Shown here: piece by piece, positions 1,993 to 38,054 of the stretch
Numbering within the stretch: position 1 is the first letter of the stretch
How the letters are laid out: the number at the start of each line of letters is the position of its first letter
NCBI GenBank assembly: GCA_036488875.1
Contig: DASXGW010000002.1
Location: 248,001-312,000 of the forward strand
Source of the DNA: Candidatus Baltobacteraceae bacterium
GTDB taxonomy: Bacteria > Vulcanimicrobiota > Vulcanimicrobiia > Vulcanimicrobiales > Vulcanimicrobiaceae
Length of the DNA: 64,000 bases
Reading direction: 5' to 3'
The notes under the pieces: model-generated
Seen by the model: the letters and a program-made list of their open reading frames with translations, nothing else
The model's database searches: none
Told to the model about the DNA's origin: nothing
Program-made: the position numbers and the translations under genes

Positions 1993-2265
1993 TACACCTC
2001 CGATTTCGAAGCATGTTGTCTCTCCTACCGGACAAACCTTTATAGGCCCGCGCGCGCAACACGATGACGACCGAAACGCAGAATGCGATTTAGCGAGCAT
2101 TGCGATCGACGGAGCTTACCGGTTACCGCCACTTTCGCTTCCCCGTCGTGACCGGCGGCGGCTTCCGCAAGGCGACCGCGCCGGCCCGATTTTCTCAGAG
2201 TTTTCCCAGCTATGTTCTTAGCCGGCGCGGCGGGTTGACGGCGCTACCGCGGGAATAACCGATTT

Positions 2266-3489
2266 ATGCCGTTGTGCGCGCATATCGTCGTAGTGTTTGT
2301 CTTGGCAGCGAACTGGCTCACGTTTCGTCTCGGACCGGAGAACAATGCCCTCGTGACCGATCCGCCGTTGCAGGCGACGTGGAAGACGGTCACGGGCGCA
2401 CCCATTTCGGCGAGCCCCACCACCGACGGCACGTTGCTCTACGTCGGGAACAATGCGGGTTATCTCAACGCGATCGACCTGCAAACCGGAAACGTGGTCT
2501 GGACGAGACATTTGCGCAATGCGGTCATGAGCGCGGCGTTGCTGTACGACGGCATGGTCTACGTCGGCATCGGCGACGAAAGCAGCAACGGTTCCGGACC
2601 CGGAGCCGTCTTCGTCGGAACGGGCCCCAGTGCGATCGACGCGTTCGAAGCGCGCACCGGTACGTTCAAATGGCACACCGCCGTCGCCGGTTCGGCGATG
2701 ACGACCTCAGCGATCGTTAACGGCACGCTGCTCAACCACAATGGCGCCGGTTGGATCACCGCGCTCGATCCCGCGTCGGGCCGAGTCAGGTACGCGCGCA
2801 ACCTGCGTTCGCTCGCTTCAATGACCGCGATTTTACCGCTCGACGGCGGATTCTTCATCACGACCGGCGTGCTCGACAACGCGGTATGGAAACTCAAAGC
2901 GTCCGACGGATCCACCGTTTGGCGCACGGCCTTCTCCCCCGAGGCATCCGGACACGGCGATTGTCCGCCGGTGACCGACGGCACCCGAGTGTACTGCGAC
3001 TATATGTCGCCGGCGCCCGGCCAAACGTACACCATCGCCGGAAACAAGGCCCAGGAACGCGCCTATGCGCTCGACCTCAAAACGGGGCAGTTACTCTGGG
3101 ACGTTCCGCTCGAGACGGCCGTTCTTCCGCCGCGCAACGAAGCCGCGATCCCATTACTCTACGACGGACGGTTGTATCTGGGAAGCTGCGTCGTCGCCTA
3201 CATGCACGCGCTCGACCCCGCGACCGGCCATCTGCTTTGGGAGACGCACGTCCACGGCGTCGTCAAGAGCGGCGCCGTCCTGGTCGAGGGCGTGCTGTAC
3301 TTCGGAGACCTCGGAGGCTATCTGTGGGCCCTCGATCCAAGTACCGGCAAAGTGCTCGGCGACAAGAAGATGGGCAGCGGCTTCAACGTCGGATCGCCGA
3401 TCGTCGTCGGGAAAACGCTCATCATCGGCAGCCGGACCGGCGCCGTCTACGCGCTTCCGCTCGACGACATTCGCAACAGTCACGATTAG
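2266..3489 (+). CDS. Secreted PQQ-like beta-propeller repeat protein
   Basis: The 407-residue product has a hydrophobic N-terminus that resembles a signal peptide. It is followed by repeated blades of the type LYVGNNAGYLNAIDLQTGNV, YFGDLGGYLWALDPSTGKVL and IIGSRTGAVYALPL. Such Trp/Asp/Gly-rich blades are typical of PQQ-dependent dehydrogenases and BamB-like propellers. No cytochrome c CxxCH motif and no obvious PQQ-dehydrogenase catalytic block is seen, so a binding or scaffold role outside the cytoplasm is more likely than a quinoprotein enzyme. It is divergent from the amine oxidase across a gap of about 270 bases that must hold both promoters. Confidence 0.8.
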   Translation: MPLCAHIVVVFVLAANWLTFRLGPENNALVTDPPLQATWKTVTGAPISASPTTDGTLLYVGNNAGYLNAIDLQTGNVVWTRHLRNAVMSAALLYDGMVYVGIGDESSNGSGPGAVFVGTGPSAIDAFEARTGTFKWHTAVAGSAMTTSAIVNGTLLNHNGAGWITALDPASGRVRYARNLRSLASMTAILPLDGGFFITTGVLDNAVWKLKASDGSTVWRTAFSPEASGHGDCPPVTDGTRVYCDYMSPAPGQTYTIAGNKAQERAYALDLKTGQLLWDVPLETAVLPPRNEAAIPLLYDGRLYLGSCVVAYMHALDPATGHLLWETHVHGVVKSGAVLVEGVLYFGDLGGYLWALDPSTGKVLGDKKMGSGFNVGSPIVVGKTLIIGSRTGAVYALPLDDIRNSHD

Positions 3490-27626: not shown

Positions 27627-27956
27627 ATGGCATTTTTGCTTCCGATCCTCGAAGGCGCGGGCGCCGGGCTGCTCGGCAACGCCGTCGGCGGACTCTTCGG
27701 CGGTGCCGGCGGCGCGGCCGAAAACGGCGCAATGAACGCGCTGAACTCACAGGACGAGAGCTTCCAGCTCGGGATCTACGCGTCCGAGATCCAGAATCAA
27801 GAGCAACTGCAGATGCAGTCGGAGGTCTTCGATCAGATGATGGACGAGCGCAGCGAAAACATGCGTGAGGTCGACACGCTTCGCAACGTCGACATGGCCC
27901 AACGCAAAGCCGACGACTCGATCACCAAGAAGTTCATTCAGAGCATCACCGAATGA
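27627..27956 (+). CDS. Small protein: Gly-rich N-terminus, helical C-terminus
   Basis: The 109-residue protein starts MAFLLPILEGAGAGLLGNAV and continues as a Gly/Ala-rich hydrophobic stretch of about 35 residues. The remainder is strongly helical and charged, with MQSEVFDQMMDERSENMRE and RKADDSITKKFIQSITE. AGGAGGG lies about 8 bases before the ATG. A truncated homologue of residues about 61-99 lies inverted at 28436-28582. I do not recognise the family. The form (membrane-active head and coiled helical tail, next to a transglycosylase) recalls small structural proteins of phages or secretion machines; that is inference only. Confidence 0.7.
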   Translation: MAFLLPILEGAGAGLLGNAVGGLFGGAGGAAENGAMNALNSQDESFQLGIYASEIQNQEQLQMQSEVFDQMMDERSENMREVDTLRNVDMAQRKADDSITKKFIQSITE

Positions 27957-28213
27957 GCGCGCCGCTTCTTCCGCCGCGCGGCGATCGCACCACAGCGGTG
28001 CGCGCCGCGGCGGCGCGTCCGGCGGCCGGCGCGCCGCCTTCTGACCTCACCGCCGAGCAGCAGGCGCAAGTCGCCGCGCAGCACGCCGCCTTCGACTTCC
28101 AGGCGGCGGAGTCGGCCGAGATGCTGCGCGAGCATGAGGCGCTCCAAGCCCTCATGATGGAGCAGCTCAAGAACGAAGACGAGATCATGAAAAAGTGGAT
28201 CGCGCTCATCTGA
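27953..28213 (+). CDS. Small helical protein, unknown function
   Basis: The 86-residue product overlaps the previous gene by four bases (ATGA). Its first 30 residues are Pro/Ala/Arg-rich and probably disordered. The rest is a long helix (LTAEQQAQVAAQHAAFDFQ, then EMLREHEALQALMMEQLKN) ending EDEIMKKWIALI. That ending resembles the DDSITKKFIQSITE end of the upstream protein, so the two may be distant paralogues or partners. I do not recognise a family. Confidence 0.65.
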   Translation: MSAPLLPPRGDRTTAVRAAAARPAAGAPPSDLTAEQQAQVAAQHAAFDFQAAESAEMLREHEALQALMMEQLKNEDEIMKKWIALI

Positions 28214-28273: not shown

Positions 28274-28350
28274 GGGCCATTAGCTCAGTTGGTTAGAGCG
28301 CATGCTTGATAAGCATGAGGTCCCTGGTTCGAACCCAGGATGGCCCACCA
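28274..28350 (+). tRNA. tRNA-Ile (anticodon GAT)
   Basis: The cloverleaf is complete: acceptor stem GGGCCAT/ATGGCCC, D-arm TAGCTCAGTTGGTTAGAGC, anticodon stem CATGC/GCATG with loop TTGATAA (anticodon GAT), T-arm CTGGTTCGAACCCAG, and an encoded CCA. The 3' half from 28303 on is repeated at 29373-29421, so this gene served as an integration site and was left intact. Confidence 0.97.
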
Positions 28351-28352
28351 TT
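28303..28352 (+). repeat. Attachment-site copy (attL-like) inside tRNA-Ile
   Basis: This 50-base stretch runs from the anticodon loop to just past CCA. It recurs at 29373-29421 with only one base missing. The layout is what a tyrosine recombinase leaves after integrating at a tRNA. Confidence 0.85.
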
Positions 28353-28363
28353 TGATGAAAAAC

Positions 28364-28391
28364 AAACCTCCGGCGTGCTCGGAGGTTTTCT
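28364..28391 (+). terminator. Intrinsic terminator downstream of tRNA-Ile
   Basis: AAACCTCCG and CGGAGGTTT form a stem around a short GCGTGCT loop, followed by T-rich sequence. It lies 13 bases after the tRNA end and inside the putative integrated segment. Confidence 0.7.
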
Positions 28392-28408
28392 CATTCTTGA
28401 CCCGCTCA

Positions 28409-28429
28409 GGGGTCAAACGCGGGGTCAAA
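28409..28429 (+). repeat. Tandem GGGGTCAAA motifs, left end of element
   Basis: GGGGTCAAA occurs at 28409-28417 and again at 28421-28429, a 12-base period, with an inverted TTGACCC at 28397-28403. The same tandem spacing occurs at the other end (29296-29316). They look like arm-type recombinase or excisionase binding sites. Confidence 0.6.
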
Positions 28430-28435
28430 ACTTCG

Positions 28436-28582
28436 TCAGAAAGCCGCATGTCCGCGACAGACCATCTTGGTGATGGAACTGTCGGCTTTTCGCAGCGCCG
28501 TATCGACGTTGCGCTGCGTATCGACCCCGCGCATATTCTCGCTGCGCTCGTCCATCATCTGATCGAATATCTCGGATTGCAT
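28436..28582 (-). pseudogene. Truncated homologue of the 109-residue module protein
   Basis: The minus strand encodes 48 residues starting MQSEIFDQMMDERSENMRG. About 33 of the first 39 positions match residues of the protein encoded at 27627-27956 (both read ...DQMMDERSENMR.. and end the match at SITK). After that match the sequence diverges into CRGHAAF and a stop, close to the tandem motif site. A stop codon lies directly before the Met, and the Gly-rich N-terminal half is missing. It is therefore best seen as a relic of a related gene, lying 16 bases after the 198-residue gene on the same strand. Confidence 0.75.
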
Positions 28583-28598
28583 TTAGGCGCTCGTGGAC

Positions 28599-29195
28599 TC
28601 ACGCCGGGCGGAAGAACCCGATGAGGCCGCCCTTCGCCTCCCCCGTCGTCGCGTCAATTTCAAACGGAGTATTAGGACCCAACTCCTCGTGGCTGCCGCC
28701 TTTGGGAACCCAGGCCATTCCACGAACGATCCCGTTCGAGTAGCTGAGATCGCGAATGCCGTCTAACGAAACGCGATCGGAGATCCAAAGGATATTGGTG
28801 CCGTCGAAGGCACACACGTCCGTTTCGTCGGCGAGAAACATTTTGCCACCGACAACGTCGGACGCTGCACAAGTTAGCGGCAACGCCGGCAACTCCGACA
28901 CGTCCTCAGGATTACGAACGTCGAGCACGTAGCCTACACCGCGAACCCTGACGCCCATGACGTGGCGATTCGGCGTAGTAAAAATGCAAGGCGCCCCCGT
29001 GCTCCAACGCCCGGTAAATCCACGCTTCCAGGCTTTGCCATCGTCAGTCGTAACTTCCACTTGAACGACGGCGTCCGGGTCTACTCCCGTCGCGGCTTCA
29101 ATCGTACGAACTACAGACGTTCCCGAATGGGGGATGATTCTCGCCTCGTAAGCGTGGGCAAAGCCACCAACGATAACACCCTGGTCTAACTCCAT
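28599..29195 (-). CDS. Hypothetical beta-rich protein inside the tRNA-Ile element
   Basis: The 198-residue product begins MELDQGVIVGGFAHAYEARI. It has repeated beta-type segments such as GKMFLADETDVCAFDGTNIL and YSNGIVRGMAWVPKGGS that suggest part of a beta-propeller. No signal peptide, catalytic motif or familiar family is visible. It is the only intact gene between the two tRNA-derived repeats, so it is the presumed cargo of the element. It reads toward the tRNA. Confidence 0.6.
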   Translation of the reverse strand: MELDQGVIVGGFAHAYEARIIPHSGTSVVRTIEAATGVDPDAVVQVEVTTDDGKAWKRGFTGRWSTGAPCIFTTPNRHVMGVRVRGVGYVLDVRNPEDVSELPALPLTCAASDVVGGKMFLADETDVCAFDGTNILWISDRVSLDGIRDLSYSNGIVRGMAWVPKGGSHEELGPNTPFEIDATTGEAKGGLIGFFRPA

Positions 29196-29295
29196 TGGCG
29201 GAGGCGTGCGGCTGTAGCGACCTCGGTTCCTCTTTGCGGCGGGTCAGTCACGCCGTAGTCCAGCCCTCCCAAAGACGGCGTCCTCAGTCGCTTGA

Positions 29296-29316
29296 GGGGT
29301 CAAATGAGGGGTCAGA
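29296..29316 (+). repeat. Tandem GGGGTCAAA/GGGGTCAGA motifs, right end of element
   Basis: GGGGTCAAA at 29296-29304 and GGGGTCAGA at 29308-29316 have the same 12-base period and strand as the pair at 28409-28429. They lie 57 bases before the distal tRNA fragment. Confidence 0.6.
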
Positions 29317-29372
29317 CTGGACTGCTCGCAAGAAAACCCCTGCAAAATAAGGGCCGAAATCGCGTACCGTCG

Positions 29373-29421
29373 TGCTTGATAAGCATGAGGTCCTGGTTCG
29401 AACCCAGGATGGCCCACCATT
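29373..29421 (+). repeat. Distal attachment-site copy (attR-like tRNA-Ile 3' fragment)
   Basis: The fragment starts TGCTTGATAAGCATGAGGTC and continues through the T-arm to GGCCCACCATT, lacking one C compared with the intact gene. It has no acceptor 5' strand or D-arm, so it is not a functional tRNA. Confidence 0.85.
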
Positions 29422-29424
29422 AAA

Positions 29425-29454
29425 AGAACCTTGCTTGGCAAGGCTCTTTTTTTT
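29425..29454 (+). terminator. Intrinsic terminator behind the distal tRNA fragment
   Basis: AGAACCTTGC pairs with GCAAGGCTCT (one mismatch) around a TTG loop, followed by eight T. It is probably the original tRNA-Ile terminator displaced by the insertion. It would also end transcription running toward the convergent multicopper oxidase gene. Confidence 0.8.
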
Positions 29455-29468
29455 ACCGGATTCGATCG

Positions 29469-31274
29469 CTAGACCATCAAGATGTTCTGCATCATGCCCG
29501 TGTCTTCGTGGGGCAGCACGTGGCAGTGCCAGACGGTCTTGCCGTACCACTGTTTGAATCGAACGCGAATTGTAATACTCCCGTTAACGCCGCCGTTTGC
29601 GGGCGGCACCATGAACGTATCCCAGATCTCCGGGGGATCGACGGGCTGATCGTTGATCGCGATCACTTGAAACGAGTTTTCGTGCAAGTGGAACGGGTGG
29701 ATTTCGTCGTGCGCGTTCTCGATGCGCCACTGCTCGCAACTTCCGACCTTCGGCGCGCTTTCGATGTCCATCTCATCGTAGAGTTTTCCGTTAATCGTGA
29801 ACGCCACGCCGAAGAGCAGATCGGTTCGATTGAGCTGCTCTGCAAAGACGAACTTGCGATACTCGCGAACGCGGCTCTGGGGAATGAGGGGATACTCGCG
29901 CGACGGCTTCGGGAGCTTCTTCGGGATGCTCATATCTACGGCGTTCCCTCGAACCACGAAACGTGCGAAGTTCAGCTTGGGGATTAACCTAAAATAGAGA
30001 CCCTCGTTCGCCATCGACGCAAACGTGTACGTTCCGGGGTCGGCAGGCGCCTTGAACAGAAACTCGACACGGTTGCCCGAGCTCGCGATCATCATCGGGG
30101 CGGTCAGGAGATTCTCGTGGGTAACCACCGTCGTGCCCTTGCCGCTCATGTCTTTACTTTGGGGCTTTAGAAGATTGACGCCGTCGAACCCAATAAGCCA
30201 GCTTTCGAAACCGGGCAAGATCAAGGGCAGGGTCAGATAGTTTGTTCCGTTGAGAAAGCGCAACCGGACTACCTCGCCCGGCGAAACGTAAAACGTGGGA
30301 GCTGGGTCCACCGGCGTGTACGTGGCGCCTCCCTTAGCGCGGTTATCGACCCAGTATCGCCCCGCGTTGCCGCCCGCTTGAATGACCTCGATGTTACCCG
30401 TTGACCGATTCCTTTCGAGCGCGGTAACGGTCATCATCGTAAATTTCGTCGACAGGAAGTAACCGCCGTTTTTCGGGGCTCGATAGGCGATGTAATCGCG
30501 AGAATACGTCTTGCGCTTCCCCCTCACGGGGTTGACGTCCAGCGTTTGCACGACGAGCGTGATGTCGCGTGCGGCCGCAATCTCCGGTACCTCATCGATT
30601 GGCCCGCGAACGTAAATCAGCCCGGCCATTCCGTTGCTCACTTGCACGTCGGTCGATCCGTGGTGATGCGGATGATACCAGTGCAGGCCGCTCGGGTGAT
30701 CCTTGGGGATCGGGAAGCTGTAGTCGTAAGTTTGGCCCGGCTCGATCGCGATCATCTCGGCGTTTGGGTTGCTCGTCCCAAGCGGTTCGAAAAGGTGCGG
30801 GACCGTCTGAAGTCCGTGAACGTGCAGGTTTGTCGTATTGAAATCGTGAGGATTGTTCATCGCGTTGAGCGCAGTCGCGGGCCGATGCGGCCCGTGAAAG
30901 TCGGGGTCCATGGCCTCCATCATGTTCTGCGGCTGCGGAACGAGTTGCGGGGGGCCTTGCGTAACCTTTGGATTCGGCGGAAGTTTGTTGACCATACGAA
31001 CGTTAAGCGTGTCGCCCGGCTTCACCGTCCAGGACGGCCCAACCGTCGTGTTGGGATTGGCCATGTCGCCATAGGTGCGCCCACGCAGCTTGTAGCCGCC
31101 GGAGAACGTTGTCGTGACGTACTCCACGTTGAGCAGAAACGATTTCTTTCCGTTGGGGAGTAGTATCTCTTCGCCCTGCGTAATGAGCGATGGCCCGAAA
31201 CGTCCGGCGGTGGACGAACACGCCGCGATCGCGGCAGCAGAAAATCCCGTAATGATAAAACGGCGGCGGTCCAA
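29469..31274 (-). CDS. Tat-exported multicopper oxidase (CotA/bilirubin-oxidase-like)
   Basis: The 601-residue enzyme has all copper motifs in order: HVHG (LHVHGLQTVPH), HWYHPHHHGST, HPFHLHENSFQ and WHCHVLPHEDTGMM, giving type 1, 2 and 3 copper sites with an axial Met. I start it at the TTG at 31274 because GGAGGG precedes it and the product then opens with a Tat signal (DRRRFIITGF) and a lipobox-like IAAC. It oxidises phenolic or metal substrates with oxygen, outside the membrane. The open frame extends to 31604 without a sensible N-terminus. It is divergent from a lipoprotein gene. Confidence 0.92.
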   Translation of the reverse strand: MDRRRFIITGFSAAAIAACSSTAGRFGPSLITQGEEILLPNGKKSFLLNVEYVTTTFSGGYKLRGRTYGDMANPNTTVGPSWTVKPGDTLNVRMVNKLPPNPKVTQGPPQLVPQPQNMMEAMDPDFHGPHRPATALNAMNNPHDFNTTNLHVHGLQTVPHLFEPLGTSNPNAEMIAIEPGQTYDYSFPIPKDHPSGLHWYHPHHHGSTDVQVSNGMAGLIYVRGPIDEVPEIAAARDITLVVQTLDVNPVRGKRKTYSRDYIAYRAPKNGGYFLSTKFTMMTVTALERNRSTGNIEVIQAGGNAGRYWVDNRAKGGATYTPVDPAPTFYVSPGEVVRLRFLNGTNYLTLPLILPGFESWLIGFDGVNLLKPQSKDMSGKGTTVVTHENLLTAPMMIASSGNRVEFLFKAPADPGTYTFASMANEGLYFRLIPKLNFARFVVRGNAVDMSIPKKLPKPSREYPLIPQSRVREYRKFVFAEQLNRTDLLFGVAFTINGKLYDEMDIESAPKVGSCEQWRIENAHDEIHPFHLHENSFQVIAINDQPVDPPEIWDTFMVPPANGGVNGSITIRVRFKQWYGKTVWHCHVLPHEDTGMMQNILMV

Positions 31275-31479
31275 TATGTCCCTCCAATAAAACTCCCGGC
31301 TATGACCTTCAAAGTTCCGTCGCCACCGAGCCATCCCCTGGTTGCATCCACCGCTTCCCAATTGGCGAGCGAGCATGCTTGCCTGCCGACTGACACGCCG
31401 ACCAAACGACAACATCGCAGGCCAACTCAACCGCCGCAACAAAGCGCAATCCGTCGACGTTCCGGCGAGGAGGCATCGC

Positions 31480-32337
31480 ATGCGTTTGAACCTCGGTCGC
31501 TTTTTTGTACTCGTTATCCTAGCCGCGCCGTCAGCTTGCAGCGGCCCAGCCGCACATGAAACCCCCTCGTTCGCGGTGCCGTCAGTCGACCGGACGCAGC
31601 GCACCCCAGAGTCGAGCGTTCGGTTCTGGGTTTACAACTCCACAGCGAAGACGTTCCAACAGGGCGAGCTCGGCGGCTATTGCGTTCCAACAATGGCCGC
31701 TCGAGACGTCAAGCCGGGCACGACGATTGAAATTGTCGGTGTCGCGTCGGGCTGTCTGACTCTGGCGGCCTTCGACGTCCGGCTGCGCGATGTCGCAGCC
31801 GGCAAATCCATCTACTTTTCGGCGAACTACGAGACGACGGGCGGGATCTTCTCGCAAGCGAAGGTCCGATCGACCTCGGTCCCCTACACGGGCGTCTGCA
31901 CCAATGTCGACCCCGAGGCGGCCGTCCTTTATATCTCCACGAGTGGCTGCGGTGGTGGTGGCGGAACGATTGCGAAGTCGCAAGGACCTCAGACGTTCAC
32001 CCTTCGCATCGACAACCGGACCGGCATCGATCTCGTCGGCAAGACGGTCTGGTCCTACTGCACGAGCACGAAGCTTCAAGGTTTCTTAGGCGCCGGAGGA
32101 ACGCTGATCGCGGGCATCGCGACGAAAGGGGGCTCGCAGGCGTGCAAGCACATCGCCAACTTCGCTACGGACTACTACGAGCTGCATTCCGGTAACCTCG
32201 TCGAGGAAATCGAGTGGACCTTTACCGCACCCCACAAGACCCAACTCGCCGTCGACGGCTTCAAGGGGTATTGCGCGAGATCTCATCCAAAGGAACTCGT
32301 GCGTTTCTATAAAGCCGGCATCAACGGGTGTTATTAA
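31480..32337 (+). CDS. Hypothetical lipoprotein with two related beta-rich domains
   Basis: From the ATG at 31480 (AGGAGG seven bases upstream) the product has 285 residues and a lipoprotein signal ending APSACSG. Two domains of about 120 residues resemble each other: SVRFWVYNSTAKTF..GYC and TFTLRIDNRTGIDL..SYC, each with conserved cysteines. A Gly-rich strip (SGCGGGGGT) joins them. I do not recognise a family. The next gene follows six bases after the stop. Confidence 0.6.
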   Translation: MRLNLGRFFVLVILAAPSACSGPAAHETPSFAVPSVDRTQRTPESSVRFWVYNSTAKTFQQGELGGYCVPTMAARDVKPGTTIEIVGVASGCLTLAAFDVRLRDVAAGKSIYFSANYETTGGIFSQAKVRSTSVPYTGVCTNVDPEAAVLYISTSGCGGGGGTIAKSQGPQTFTLRIDNRTGIDLVGKTVWSYCTSTKLQGFLGAGGTLIAGIATKGGSQACKHIANFATDYYELHSGNLVEEIEWTFTAPHKTQLAVDGFKGYCARSHPKELVRFYKAGINGCY

Positions 32338-32342
32338 GCTCG

Positions 32343-33392
32343 ATGTTCACACGCGTGCTCGTAGCCCTACTCGCAAGCTCGCTCGTCGTCCCGGTGCCGG
32401 TCTCCACGACGCCGCAGCCCGATCACTACGGAAAACTGGCGAACCGGCAGTTTCTCGTGCGAACGCCGCAAGGGAGCGGCTACGCGCTGTATTTTAGCAA
32501 CGGCTCGCTCGACGGCAGCGCCGGCGCCACGCGCGCGCTGATCATCGTGCATGGCGTACTGCGCGACGCCGACTACTACTACGATACCGGTATCATCGCC
32601 GCCGCGGCCGCACACCGGCTCGATCGCACGCTCGTCATCGCACCGCAGTTTGTCGAACCAAAGGATATCGCTGGGCGTCCGCTTCCGGCGAACACGCTGC
32701 GCTGGAGCGGCCGGTGGCCGGGTGGTTCTGACGCGATCGCGCCGGCGCCCATCAGTACGTACGACGTCTTCGATGCGATCGTCGCTCGTTTGTCCGACAG
32801 CCGGCGCTTTCCACACATGCGCGACATCGTCATCGCGGGCCATTCGGCCGGCGGACAGATCGTCCAACGATACGCAATCGTCGGTAAAGCTCCGCAACTC
32901 GACCCCGGCTCGCGCGTACCGGTGCGACTCATTATCTCGAACCCATCGTCGTATTTGTACTTTACGGATTGGAGACCGTTCCCGCCGCACAACTGCGCCG
33001 ATTTCGACCAGTGGCGTTACGGCTTGCGGGGCGCACCCCGTTACGTCACCGGAACGCCGGCACAACTCGAGGCGCGCTACGTCAAACGCAGCGTCACGTA
33101 CTTGATGGGCGAAGCCGATACCAACCCGCACGAAGACGATCTAGATCGAAGCTGCGGCGGCGAGGCGCAAGGTCCGTATCGGTTCGCCCGCGCGAAATAC
33201 TTTATCAAGTATATCGCTGGGCGTCATCCCGAGGGCACGAACCAGGAGTATGCGTTCGTTCCCCACGTTCACCACGACAACCGTGGAATGTTCACGTCGC
33301 GCTGCGGCATCGGCGTGATCTTCGATGCTACGTTGGAGGCGTGTCGCGATTCAGGGGCGGTGACTCCGGCGGCCGTGCGCGTCCTACACTAG
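32343..33392 (+). CDS. Secreted alpha/beta hydrolase
   Basis: The 349-residue product has a signal peptide (MFTRVLVALLASSLVVPVPV) and an alpha/beta hydrolase core: ALIIVHGVLRDADYYY near the oxyanion hole, the nucleophile in VIAGHSAGGQIVQRY, MGEADTNPHEDD as the likely acid region and FVPHVHHDNRGMF supplying the histidine. Homologous proteins are often simply annotated as hydrolases, and the substrate is unknown. The ATG at 32343 is preferred to an upstream in-frame TTG that overlaps the previous gene. It converges with the GloVer lipoprotein gene by a four-base overlap. Confidence 0.75.
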   Translation: MFTRVLVALLASSLVVPVPVSTTPQPDHYGKLANRQFLVRTPQGSGYALYFSNGSLDGSAGATRALIIVHGVLRDADYYYDTGIIAAAAAHRLDRTLVIAPQFVEPKDIAGRPLPANTLRWSGRWPGGSDAIAPAPISTYDVFDAIVARLSDSRRFPHMRDIVIAGHSAGGQIVQRYAIVGKAPQLDPGSRVPVRLIISNPSSYLYFTDWRPFPPHNCADFDQWRYGLRGAPRYVTGTPAQLEARYVKRSVTYLMGEADTNPHEDDLDRSCGGEAQGPYRFARAKYFIKYIAGRHPEGTNQEYAFVPHVHHDNRGMFTSRCGIGVIFDATLEACRDSGAVTPAAVRVLH

Positions 33393-34558
33393 GGCGCGAG
33401 AGAAAAGATCGTTCCGCAGCCGTTGCCGTACGCGCTGCATCCGCCGCCGTTCTGCGTGGTGCCGTAGAGTTTGCCGCTTAACAGCGTTAACGTGGAAAAG
33501 GGCCACGCTCCGTCGGTTCCACCTGCAAAAGCGTGGACGACTGCTTCGTTTCCTTTTAGCGTGACTTTGAACACGATACCCTGTTGATGCGCACCGCCGT
33601 TGACGGTTGTGCCATACAACACGCCGTGGACGTTGACGAGGCCCGCGGCCGGATTGGCTCCGTCCTTACCGCTTGCGAACTTGTAAAGTAGGCTTTCCTT
33701 CCCCGAAGGTGTCAAGCGGTAAATGGTTCCGTCGTTGTTCATTCCACCGTTATAGGTCGTACCGTAAAAAGCAGCGTCGACATAAATGAGATCGCCGATA
33801 GGATCTCCGCCGTCGTAAATCGGTTTGAACGCGTAGACGACGCGCTCTTTCCCACCGCTCGTGATGCTGAAGACGGTTCCGAAGCCACGCGTTTGGTTAC
33901 CACCGCCTTGCGTCGTGCCGTAGAGTAGGCCTTTAACGACGATTAGCCCGGCTTTGGGATTTGCGCCATCGGGCGCTCCGGTGAAGCTATGGCGCACGCG
34001 TTCCGTGCCGCCCAAGGTCACGCTAAAAACGGTTCCCTTATTCTTTGCGCCGCCGAAATACGTCGTGCCGTACAATTCGCCACCATAGACCGTCAGGCGG
34101 CCAAGTGGATCGTATCCGTCTTTTCCACCCTTAAAGCTGTACACGACATGCTCTGCTCCAGTCGAATCGATGGCAAAGACGGATCCTTTCCCGTTGGCGC
34201 CGCCCGCCGCCGTCGTGCCATACAGCGCCCCTTTGTATACAACGAGAGCAGCTTCGGGCGCCGCGCCGTCGTACACCGATCCGAACTTGTGCACGATGCT
34301 TTCGTGCGTTCCATTTCCGTCGATTGCGAAGGCCACGCCATAGTTGTAGCCCCCGTGCGAGGTAGTGCCGTAAAGTCTTCCGTTAAGCGTCGTGAGTCCG
34401 GCTAACGGCTGCGAGCCATCGGGCGGGGCGGCAAAGGCATGCACCCGCTTATAGCTCGTCGCATGCGACGCGTCGGCGACGCCGCGCAGCGGCGCGGGTC
34501 CGAAACTGCCCGAGCAGCTCGATAGCATTAGCCCCGCGACTGCAAGCAAGCGTCTCAT
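33389..34558 (-). CDS. GloVer-repeat (YGTT..GG) lipoprotein
   Basis: The 389-residue lipoprotein (signal ending LSSCSG) consists of about eight to nine repeats of roughly 40 residues of the form LYGTT..GG....GTVF....G.E.V.YSF, for example LYGTTYFGGAKNKGTVFSV. This is the choice-of-anchor tandem repeat type called GloVer, a beta-propeller-like surface protein of unknown role. A second protein of this kind is encoded at 48497-49774. Confidence 0.85.
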   Translation of the reverse strand: MRRLLAVAGLMLSSCSGSFGPAPLRGVADASHATSYKRVHAFAAPPDGSQPLAGLTTLNGRLYGTTSHGGYNYGVAFAIDGNGTHESIVHKFGSVYDGAAPEAALVVYKGALYGTTAAGGANGKGSVFAIDSTGAEHVVYSFKGGKDGYDPLGRLTVYGGELYGTTYFGGAKNKGTVFSVTLGGTERVRHSFTGAPDGANPKAGLIVVKGLLYGTTQGGGNQTRGFGTVFSITSGGKERVVYAFKPIYDGGDPIGDLIYVDAAFYGTTYNGGMNNDGTIYRLTPSGKESLLYKFASGKDGANPAAGLVNVHGVLYGTTVNGGAHQQGIVFKVTLKGNEAVVHAFAGGTDGAWPFSTLTLLSGKLYGTTQNGGGCSAYGNGCGTIFSLAP

Positions 34559-34636
34559 CGTGCCCGATACTACGGCCTCAGGCTAGAAATGTCCCCGTCG
34601 CCCCATCGCCACATGCACTCGGCACGCCTCCCCCGC

Positions 34637-35989
34637 CTATTGATCGTCGACGGGCTCGTTTGATATCGGTTCGCGTTCAAAATACGCCTGCGGAAGCTTG
34701 GCCGCGATCGGAACGAACTTACGGGGAGCTTGATGAAAGTCGAAGCAATCCGCAATGCTCGTAGCGCGCGCGTCGGTCGCGTACAACGAGCCGAGCGAAA
34801 ACGTGTTCTCGACGAACCTCAAGATACTCCCGAACTCGTACTGCGTGTGCGAGACGTAGCCTTTCTTCGCATACGGCGAGATGACGAGCATCGGCACGCG
34901 AAACCCTAACCCTTGATAATCGAGCTGCGGCGGCGGGACGTGGTCGAACAGTCCGCCCCAATCGTCCCATACGACGATAATCGCCGTTGAGTTCCAATGC
35001 GGACCTTCACCGATGGCGTCGACGACGCGGGCGACCCACTGCGGGCCGGTATCGGGACCTCCGCCAGGGTGATCGGAGTCGTGCACTTGCGGAACGACCC
35101 ACGTGACCGACGGCAGCATGCCGCGGCGCGCAACCGCGAAGACGCCGCTCGGCGGCGAGATGACGTTGTCTTTCCATTCGTCTGAATACCGTACGGCATC
35201 GATCGCGTCGAACGCATTCCAAAGCGCGCCTCCCGCACAGCAAACGTTCGGCGTGTAATATCTCCACGTCAGTCCCGCGCGGTCGATGAGATTCGCCAGC
35301 GTCTTCCACTTGAAGCACGGGAATGGCCCGGCGCCCCGTTCGACCTCACGCTTGACGTTAATGAGATTCGTTGCCGTGTGCGCGGAGGCGTCGCAACCCC
35401 ATGGAGGGTTCGAGGGAATCGGATCGTCGATCACGCTTGCCCACTTGCCGATCGCCGTTCCCCCGGCAACGAGGTCCTGATGGGCCGTGAAACTGCCGCT
35501 GGACTGCGTCTGGAACATGTGATCGGCCAGCACGTATTGTTTGGCCATCGCCCAATACGGCTGTATCTGCTCGGGGTCGACGTATCGATAGACGTATTGG
35601 CCGATCTGGCCACGATTGCTGCCCGCGTTGGCATTCGCGAAACCGTCCATTTTGCCGCCGTCGTACTCTTTGACGAATGTCGCGTGGACGTGAGCCACAT
35701 CACGGGTGAGTAAATCGCCTTTGACCAGTGGCACCGTAACCACGCCCGTGGCGGTCTTCATCTTCCCGTGCGTGGCGCCGTCGGCACCCCGAAACGTCGC
35801 GAAGAAGTCGTCGAAGCTGCGATTCTCTTGGATCAGAATCACGATATGCTTGATCGGCGACGGATTTGGGCTTGCGACCGTGGGAAGCACCGGTCCGTCC
35901 GCGTTTGTCCCGGTCACCGAGCGCGCGCAGCCGGCAACGATCAGTGCGGCGCAGACGGCGAGTGAGCTAGCCAGCGTTTTCACCATCAC
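34637..35989 (-). CDS. Phospholipase C / acid phosphatase-like lipoprotein (alkaline phosphatase fold)
   Basis: The 450-residue product has a lipoprotein signal (LIVAGCARS) and the PF04185 phosphoesterase pattern: HIVILIQENRSFDDFFATF with the metal-binding Asn/Asp, TGPQWVARVVDAIG, and IVVWDDWGGLFDHVPPP with further metal ligands. Relatives are phospholipase C and AcpA-type acid phosphatases. It should hydrolyse phosphate esters at the cell surface. A close paralogue with the same order lies at 36356-37699. Confidence 0.85.
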   Translation of the reverse strand: MMVKTLASSLAVCAALIVAGCARSVTGTNADGPVLPTVASPNPSPIKHIVILIQENRSFDDFFATFRGADGATHGKMKTATGVVTVPLVKGDLLTRDVAHVHATFVKEYDGGKMDGFANANAGSNRGQIGQYVYRYVDPEQIQPYWAMAKQYVLADHMFQTQSSGSFTAHQDLVAGGTAIGKWASVIDDPIPSNPPWGCDASAHTATNLINVKREVERGAGPFPCFKWKTLANLIDRAGLTWRYYTPNVCCAGGALWNAFDAIDAVRYSDEWKDNVISPPSGVFAVARRGMLPSVTWVVPQVHDSDHPGGGPDTGPQWVARVVDAIGEGPHWNSTAIIVVWDDWGGLFDHVPPPQLDYQGLGFRVPMLVISPYAKKGYVSHTQYEFGSILRFVENTFSLGSLYATDARATSIADCFDFHQAPRKFVPIAAKLPQAYFEREPISNEPVDDQ

Positions 35990-36026
35990 GATATACGAAG
36001 CTGGCGCTTCGCGCCCTTTCGCCGGC

Positions 36027-36326
36027 CTACTTGCTCTCCCGCGCCTCGCGCGTAAACACCGGCATCAGCAGCCACAGAAACACCATGACGGTCAGAACGC
36101 CGGTTTCGAGCATCACGGTTTGATACTCCACGTTGCGAATGCGCGCCGCAACGTAGGCCTTGTGCTCGGCGCTCTCGATGCCGAACTGCGCCAAGGGGTT
36201 GCCGGGGTCGATTCCCGGCACGTTGCTTTGGTTGACCCGATCGCGCTGCGCGACGTAGTTAAAGCCGACCAGCGCCGTGGCGCCGAGGAACAGCGCGAGG
36301 AGGGCGACGCGAAGTTGCTGGGTCAT
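36027..36326 (-). CDS. Small membrane protein, unknown
   Basis: The 99-residue protein has one hydrophobic helix at each end (LRVALLALFLGATALVGF and MLETGVLTVMVFLWLLMPVF) with a 50-residue polar segment between them that would face outside. I do not recognise it. It sits between the two phospholipase-like genes on the same strand and may be transcribed with them. Confidence 0.6.
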   Translation of the reverse strand: MTQQLRVALLALFLGATALVGFNYVAQRDRVNQSNVPGIDPGNPLAQFGIESAEHKAYVAARIRNVEYQTVMLETGVLTVMVFLWLLMPVFTREARESK

Positions 36327-36355
36327 GGAAGGGGTTTCGCGAAGCGTGCGGCCGG

Positions 36356-37699
36356 TTACTCTGTGTCGACGGGCTCGGTCGAAATCGGTTCGTGCAGAAA
36401 GAACTCGAGCGACTGCGGAGCCGGAATCGTCTTGAAGGCGCGCGGCTTTTGCGAGAAGTTGAAGACGTCGTCGATGCTGCTGACGCCGACATCGGTCGTG
36501 TTGAGATGTCCCAAGCCCCAGTTGTCCTCGACGAACCGTAGGATGCTTCCGAACTCGTACTGCGTGTGCGAGACGTAGCTCTTACGCGCGTAAGGCGAGA
36601 TCACCAGCATCGGAACCCTGAAGCCCAAACCGTCGTAGTACTTTTGCGGTGGAGGGACGTGATCGAACTGGCCGCCCCAATCATCCCAGACGACGATTAT
36701 CGCCGTGGATTTCCAGTACGGCGAATGCCCGATCGCGTTGGCGACTTGGGCAACCCATGCGGGTCCGTGATCTGGCGGTGAGCCGGGGTGATCCGAGTTG
36801 CCCACCTTAGGAATGACCCACGATACGGCCGGCAGCTGCCCCTTCGTTATGTCGGAGAACACGTTGGTTTCCGGCATCGAAACGTTGGTGCCCCATTCCG
36901 GGCCGTACCGAACCGCATGAATGGCCTCGAAGGCATTCCAGATTGGGCCGCCGTCGCAGCAGATCGGCTCGACGTAGTACTTCCACGACACGCTTTTAGC
37001 ATCGAGCAAATCTCGAAGCGTGGGCCAGGTGAAGCACGGGAACGGTCCAACTTTCGTAACGACGTTTTTCGTCTTCTTGTAAATCAACGCTGTTGTGGTA
37101 GCCGGGTCCTTCGCGTCGCAGCCTGCGGGATCCGACGACGTGAGATCGATGACGGCGGCACTGGCATTGAGGTGGGTGTTGCCTCGAATCAGATCCTGGT
37201 GCGCCGTGAAGCTTCCGCTGCTCTGCGTTTGAAATAAATGATCGGCCAGCACGTATTGCTGCGCCAGCGTCCAATACGGCTTGATTTGGCTTGGATCCAC
37301 GTACGTATATGCGTTCGTTCCGGTCTTTCCGCAGCCGATGCAGGCAAAGTTTACCAGGCCAAAGCCGTCCATCTTCTTGCCGTCATATTCGGTCAGGAAG
37401 GCAGCGTGAAGGTGGTTGACGTCGCGCGACACCAACGGGCCCTTGGTCAAGGGAACCGTAACGACGCCGCTAGCAGTCTTCATCTTCCCGTGCGTCGCGC
37501 CGTCCGCGCCCGGATACGTCGCAAAGAGGTTGTCGAAGCTGCGATTCTCTTGAATGAGAATCACGACGTGCTGGATTGGCGAAGCGGTGGACCGATTGAC
37601 GTGCGTCGCGTTCGGGTGCGGCGGAAGCGGCATACCCGAAGATCCCCCACAGCCGGCGAGGGCCGCCAAAACCAAACCGAACAACGCGTGACGCTTCAT
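36356..37699 (-). CDS. Phospholipase C / acid phosphatase-like lipoprotein, paralogue
   Basis: The 447-residue product starts at the ATG at 37699 with lipoprotein signal LAALAGCGG. It has HVVILIQENRSFDNLFATY, ILADHLFQTQ-like and AHQDLIRGN segments, and IVVWDDWGGQFDHVPPP, matching the gene at 34637-35989 along its length. It differs mainly in the middle section with two CxxC-like turns (FACIGCGKTG). It is expected to be a surface phosphoesterase. The open frame upstream of 37699 runs through the tRNA-Ala gene and is not coding. Confidence 0.85.
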   Translation of the reverse strand: MKRHALFGLVLAALAGCGGSSGMPLPPHPNATHVNRSTASPIQHVVILIQENRSFDNLFATYPGADGATHGKMKTASGVVTVPLTKGPLVSRDVNHLHAAFLTEYDGKKMDGFGLVNFACIGCGKTGTNAYTYVDPSQIKPYWTLAQQYVLADHLFQTQSSGSFTAHQDLIRGNTHLNASAAVIDLTSSDPAGCDAKDPATTTALIYKKTKNVVTKVGPFPCFTWPTLRDLLDAKSVSWKYYVEPICCDGGPIWNAFEAIHAVRYGPEWGTNVSMPETNVFSDITKGQLPAVSWVIPKVGNSDHPGSPPDHGPAWVAQVANAIGHSPYWKSTAIIVVWDDWGGQFDHVPPPQKYYDGLGFRVPMLVISPYARKSYVSHTQYEFGSILRFVEDNWGLGHLNTTDVGVSSIDDVFNFSQKPRAFKTIPAPQSLEFFLHEPISTEPVDTE

Positions 37700-37727
37700 C
37701 GGTAACTCGATCGCTCCCAAAACGACG

Positions 37728-37803
37728 TGGTGGAGATGAGGGGACTCGAACCCCTGACCTTCGCCTTGCAAAGGCGTTGCTCTACCAACTGAGCTACATC
37801 CCC
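37728..37803 (-). tRNA. tRNA-Ala (anticodon TGC)
   Basis: On the minus strand the acceptor stem GGGGATG/CATCTCC (one G-T pair), anticodon loop TTTGCAA and T-arm with GTTCGAGTC are clear, and CCA is encoded. The first four bases are also part of a 13-bp inverted repeat (37800-37828). Confidence 0.96.
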
Positions 37804-37828
37804 AAAAAATGCTGCGCATTTTTTGGGG
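37800..37828. repeat. Perfect 13-bp inverted repeat at the 5' end of tRNA-Ala
   Basis: CCCCAAAAAATGC and GCATTTTTTGGGG are separated by three bases. The repeat includes the first four nucleotides of the mature tRNA, so a precursor could form a leader hairpin that competes with the acceptor stem. Confidence 0.8.
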
Positions 37829-37978
37829 GCCCCTTGCGCTTGTAACAGGCACTCCGCGCTTCGCGCTTCGCGCCCCCCACTCACGTGGGGCCCCCAAACC
37901 GCTGCAATCACTGCGACAGCGAAGGCGAGCGCCCTGCAAGGGTTCGCGACGCTGGGCGTGAAGAGAGCCGACCGCGCC

Positions 37979-38054
37979 GGGGGCATAGCTCAGTTGGTAG
38001 AGCATTACGCTGGCAGCGTAAGGGTCAGGAGTTCGAGTCTCCTTGCCTCCACCA
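37979..38054 (+). tRNA. tRNA-Ala (anticodon GGC)
   Basis: The acceptor stem GGGGGCA/TGCCTCC, D-arm TAGCTCAGTTGGTAGAGC, anticodon stem TTACG/CGTAA with loop CTGGCAG (anticodon GGC) and an encoded CCA are all present. It is divergent from tRNA-Ala(TGC), 175 bases away. That gap holds only GC-rich low-complexity sequence and I see no gene in it. Confidence 0.96.

Follow-up and report, generated by a model that had tools for sequence, protein, structure and literature searches.

A probable integrase-less island relic at the tRNA-Ile(GAT) gene of a Candidatus Baltobacteraceae genome

Here, we describe a 1.07-kb stretch at the tRNA-Ile(GAT) gene of a Candidatus Baltobacteraceae bacterium, which we read, with a probability of roughly 0.78, as an island that has lost its interior and its integrase, i.e., as a CIME-like relic. 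It lies in a 64-kb piece of contig DASXGW010000002.1, called the window in the following. The stretch carries both cores and both clusters of arm-like repeats, and holds no detectable integrase.

In the course of events that we propose, an island would have entered the 3' part of tRNA-Ile(GAT) via site-specific recombination by a tyrosine recombinase at the anticodon arm. The island's own copy would have replaced the 3' half of the tRNA gene (attL), and the old 3' half would have moved 1.07 kb downstream (attR). The interior including the integrase gene would then have been lost, presumably by deletion, leaving the cores, the arm-type repeat clusters, an accessory gene and a pseudogene fragment. 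The features concerned are the following, in window coordinates.

27627-27956, plus strand: 109-aa gene upstream of tRNA-Ile, outside the element; its C-terminal part resembles the gene fragment
28274-28350, plus strand: intact tRNA-Ile(GAT), with the attL side of the core at 28303-28350
28364-28388, plus strand: terminator-like hairpin after the intact tRNA-Ile, by position inside the element
28409-28427, plus strand: left arm-like tandem direct repeat GGGGTCAAACGC-GGGGTCA, 58 bp inward of the left end
28460-28582, minus strand: 123-nt gene fragment in inverted orientation; it matches the C-terminal region of the 109-aa gene (27813-27935) at 81% identity
28599-29195, minus strand: 198-aa ORF, the only apparent cargo gene
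29296-29314, plus strand: right arm-like tandem direct repeat GGGGTCAAATGA-GGGGTCA
29341-29353, plus strand: TGCAAAATAAGGG motif, some 20 bp ahead of the core; with one base different, it recurs at the junction of the truncated integrase (contig C14, same genome)
29373-29419, plus strand: predicted attR, the tRNA-Ile 3' part with 47 of 48 bases, one C deleted
29429-29443, plus strand: terminator-like hairpin after attR

Results

Core copies and contents of the element

The original prediction placed a repeat of the tRNA-Ile 3' half (50 bases) 1.07 kb downstream of the tRNA gene, with one base lost, and its coordinates are accurate. Bases 28303-28352 recur at 29373-29421 with a core-to-core spacing of 1070 bp, and the lost C belongs to the CCC before the T-stem. 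The final 26 nt of tRNA-Ile are identical in the downstream copy (0 expected in shuffles), and with up to three mismatches they occur at two sites only within the window. A terminator was predicted past the downstream copy, and a hairpin is indeed found there, which from its position is probably the original tRNA-Ile terminator. Another hairpin follows the intact tRNA-Ile.

It was also proposed that the copies bracket one unknown gene and a gene fragment without an integrase. This is what the interval holds: the 198-aa ORF, which is the only one above 100 aa, and the 123-nt fragment; no integrase remnant was found inside the element. The 198-aa ORF matched no Pfam, NCBIfam or PHROG family, phage or plasmid homologues were not found, and at the sensitivity used no homologue turned up in viral or genome contigs. 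Within the class, homologues are sporadic (G044 52%; G059 41% and 39%; G080 33%; G020 32%) and sit in gene neighbourhoods unlike that of the window. A single-sequence fold of the ORF reached a pLDDT of 40 and was too poor for use. A link of the homologues to RHS, an idea taken from the translations, came down to a single sub-threshold RHS match, on which we make no claim.

Compared with the 109-aa gene, the fragment shows 3, 6 and 14 differences at codon positions 1, 2 and 3, respectively. The differences are biased to the third position, so a coding copy gave rise to the fragment. Among the compared loci, the closest DNA match of the fragment is the host gene (82%), followed by G012 with 81% over a shorter stretch. 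The 109-aa gene itself is kept beside tRNA-Ile in much of the family. Together with an 86-aa gene, it forms a pair (27627-28213 for both) conserved upstream of tRNA-Ile beside an SLT transglycosylase gene. The two genes may be related, because weaker second matches of the 109-aa protein adjoin it in many genomes.

Arm-like repeats and a motif near attR

Matched tandem direct repeats (GGGGTCAAANGNGGGGTCA), absent from the original prediction, lie about 58 bp inside each end of the element. Each end has two GGGGTCA copies with a 12-bp period, and these make up four of the eight plus-strand GGGGTCA words of the window. The paired pattern occurs nowhere else in the 3.7-Mb genome with up to two mismatches and in none of the 116 other genomes of the class with up to one mismatch; as the search pattern was drawn from the observed repeats, these counts describe uniqueness and are no unbiased p-value. 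In a separate test, the two 120-bp ends reached a best 20-mer identity of 18, whereas 300 approximate dinucleotide shuffles gave 15 at most. From general knowledge of tyrosine recombinases and from their position, we take the GGGGTCA repeats to be integrase arm sites, which an integrase would bind. A full-length parent island with GGGGTCA arms was not found in the 117 class genomes, genome_contigs or viral_contigs. For the six matches to the arms in viral_contigs, neither a tRNA nor a match to any of the integrases tried was found, and they look accidental.

The motif TGCARAATAAGGG was considered as a general att mark and dismissed, as it has just four matches in 117 genomes. Two are in the genome of the window, at attR of the element and at the integrase/tRNA junction on contig C14; the others are located in apparently unrelated sequence of G006 and near a contig end of G098. 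Tandem repeats of 9-11 bp with an 11-12-bp period are also found before the core in G012, G084, G113 and on C14.

The same tRNA in related genomes

Extra copies of the tRNA-Ile 3' part that start at tRNA positions 26-35, i.e., in or beside the anticodon arm, occur in 13 out of 117 class genomes (G000, which is the genome of the window, G010, G011, G012, G045, G075, G080, G083, G084, G085, G087, G089 and G113); in several of them, the partial copy and the intact tRNA-Ile lie on different contigs. The G113 copy by itself yields a weak tRNA-Ile call in ARAGORN. In G018 the copy is longer, starting at position 1 or 19 by alignment.

Both an integrase-bearing island and empty sites are present at this tRNA in relatives. 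G012 carries a 22.5-kb island whose PF00589 integrase lies 149 bp away from the end of the tRNA; the repeats TTACTAACCC and ACTAGCCCAC are common to both ends of the island and lie inside them. In G113, a PF00589 gene ends at L221:3272, followed by tandem repeats and then the core. In G011, a 3' fragment stands directly before tRNA-Ala-Ala and the C-terminal end of an integrase is found upstream (38.8%, E 6.8e-8). The integrase search covered 41 of the 117 genomes, with G080 outside those 41, and contig ends cut the loci of several relatives. The empty sites that were to be sought in related genomes were found in part: the outgroup G025 has Ile-Ala(TGC)-Ala(GGC) in a contiguous array, and in the only same-genus genome, G001, contigs end on both sides of the tRNA-Ile locus. 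In G022, Ile and Ala are 22 nt apart. Recurrent breakpoints in 13 genomes, the contiguous outgroup array, the integrase-bearing island of G012 and the paired arm-like repeats together support the prediction of an integrated element at tRNA-Ile.

In the window, 9.4 kb lie between tRNA-Ile and the first tRNA-Ala, and tRNA-Ala(TGC) at 37728-37803 is inverted. Since attR is not next to tRNA-Ala, unlike the predicted ancestral order, the right flank was rearranged too. The Ile-Ala-Ala array is split over 29420-38054, with 8.3 kb of other genes after attR, and the same Ile-Ala gap is filled by unrelated genes in many family members.

Small units were seen at three further loci. In both G010 and G089, tRNA-Ile 3' copies bound an interval of about 1.1 kb, with unrelated contents and no integrase-like ORF seen. 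These intervals are weaker cases, because no arm repeats common to both ends were found in either of them. In G080 (L211, G080:C222, 1819-2330), tRNA-Ile is followed by three partial copies, i.e., at least three tandem units of about 149 bp, each consisting of the tRNA 3' part and a 102-bp repeat-rich spacer with no ORF of note. From copy to copy, the distance is first 137 bp, with 10 Ns included, and then 149 bp. G020, which belongs to the same genus as G080, is 96% identical on both flanks and is without the array, and thus represents a natural empty site.

Recombinases and present mobility

A matching recombinase was to be sought elsewhere in the genome, and no complete one was seen. The genome encodes two PF00589 proteins, an Xer-type recombinase, whose best match, XerC, falls below the curated cut-off, and a truncated integrase, a 137-aa C-terminal piece on contig C14, which is the only non-Xer candidate in the assembly. 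The C-terminus of this integrase and TGTGACAAA tandem repeats directly adjoin a tRNA-Leu. As a side observation, this tRNA-Leu(TAA) gene (L093, G000:C14, about 1999-2300, minus strand) is split by a 219-nt group I intron according to the intron mode of ARAGORN; the match to Rfam Intron_gpI has an E of 4.7e-7, below gathering.

The element is probably immobile in its own genome today, since no complete cognate integrase was seen in the 97.6%-complete assembly. The genome has one copy of the 1.07-kb unit. Scripted recombination of the two cores yields 76 nt in which ARAGORN still finds tRNA-Ile(GAT), and hence excision need not destroy the tRNA.

Discussion

Origin of the element

Two origins, a relic or a minimal element mobilised in trans, had been left side by side in the original prediction. 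The relic is favoured, short of proof, as the genome has no non-Xer integrase other than a truncated C-terminal piece. Counting against our reading are the lack of a full-length parent with GGGGTCA arms in the genomes searched, the contig breaks of G001 at the locus, the lack of an integrase remnant that would prove a deletion, and the rearranged right flank. Under trans mobilisation, another island's integrase would have inserted a small integrase-less element in the form of a 1-kb circle, following a logic like that of MITEs or CALINs. Such an event is unlikely in our judgement. It would go well with both arm clusters and both cores being kept, with the intervals of about 1.1 kb in G010 and G089, where no integrase-like ORF was seen, with the three or more tandem gene-free 149-bp units of G080, precisely inserted relative to G020, and with the predicted tRNA that excision would leave. 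However, neither content nor arms were recognised as common to the three intervals of about 1.1 kb, the unit exists in a single copy, the genome search yielded no complete helper integrase, and the G080 array contains a run of Ns. A family-wide version is more doubtful still. It holds that integrase-free units of a tRNA-Ile core and paired arms (about 0.1-1.1 kb), the one in the window carrying one gene, were repeatedly inserted in trans by the integrases of unrelated islands. If it were true, trans-inserted units would be the tyrosine-recombinase counterpart of MITEs.

It is very improbable that an old duplication of the tRNA region, tandem or segmental, produced the second copy with no integration involved. 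Local duplication did occur here, as seen from the inverted 123-nt copy of the neighbour gene, but the tRNA 5' part is missing from the copy, 13 genomes repeatedly show breakpoints within the anticodon arm or next to it, the matched repeats are symmetric inside both ends, and relatives have integrases at the same junctions. Such a duplication was expected to leave the same repeats and contents in all relatives, and no sampled relative shares them. We give the least credit to a chimera with its left end from one island and its right end from another that used the same site. The repeated use of tRNA-Ile as a site and the rearrangement of the stretch up to tRNA-Ala would suit a chimera; against it, the arm repeats at both ends are of the same sequence type, unique in genome and class, as for the ends of one island.

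Relation to known elements

CIMEs are defined as elements that keep attL and attR and have lost their integration and transfer genes (PMC5704250; PMC7563491). Classical CIMEs span 1.2-13 kb, and gene-free microCIMEs 130-220 bp (PMC7563491). In the window, both predicted sites are retained (cores 28303-28350 and 29373-29419, with arm-like repeats inside the ends), and no integration or conjugation/mobilisation genes are present, the one ORF above 100 aa having no family match. Judged by its sequence, the element fits the structural definition of a CIME, and ICE or IME ancestry is not part of this fit. Like the CIMEs and microCIMEs of Streptococcus, it has few or no cargo genes and is located at the 3' end of a conserved gene (PMC5704250; PMC7563491). 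In contrast to them, it belongs to another lineage, is with about 1.1 kb slightly below the CIME range, and has no tandem ICE or IME in sight. The G080 units resemble microCIMEs in size and absence of genes.

The island of G012 shares with the element the tRNA, the breakpoint region, tandem arm-like repeats at both ends and the AAAATAAGG motif about 20 bp before attR, whereas it has kept an integrase and about 22 kb, and its arm sequence differs. The ssrA islands of Dehalococcoides are likewise site-specific and flanked by repeats of the 3' end of an RNA gene, yet they differ by a serine recombinase, a tmRNA target, tandem arrangement and many genes (PMC3146451). Some of them are without integration genes and were described as possible CIMEs (PMC3146451). 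Two other classes were rejected. An IME requires its own integrase and normally a relaxase, none of which is encoded in the element. The terminal inverted repeats of a MITE are absent, and only the self-complementary T-arm of the tRNA pairs the ends. An integron cassette array or CALIN would be a poor fit, as the boundaries are tRNA 3' parts. An integrase-less remnant of a tRNA island is thus an already known kind of element.

What the element in the window adds is a clear CIME-like remnant beyond the cited Streptococcus and Dehalococcoides cases. Paired arm repeats can moreover flag integrase-less elements that integrase-based searches miss. More useful than the single element is the size series within one family at one tRNA, which runs from 22.5 kb with an integrase via 3.8 kb and about 1.1 kb to the 149-bp units, of which at least three lie in tandem and for which a natural empty site exists in the same genus. 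With this series, decay or miniaturisation of tRNA islands becomes directly comparable.
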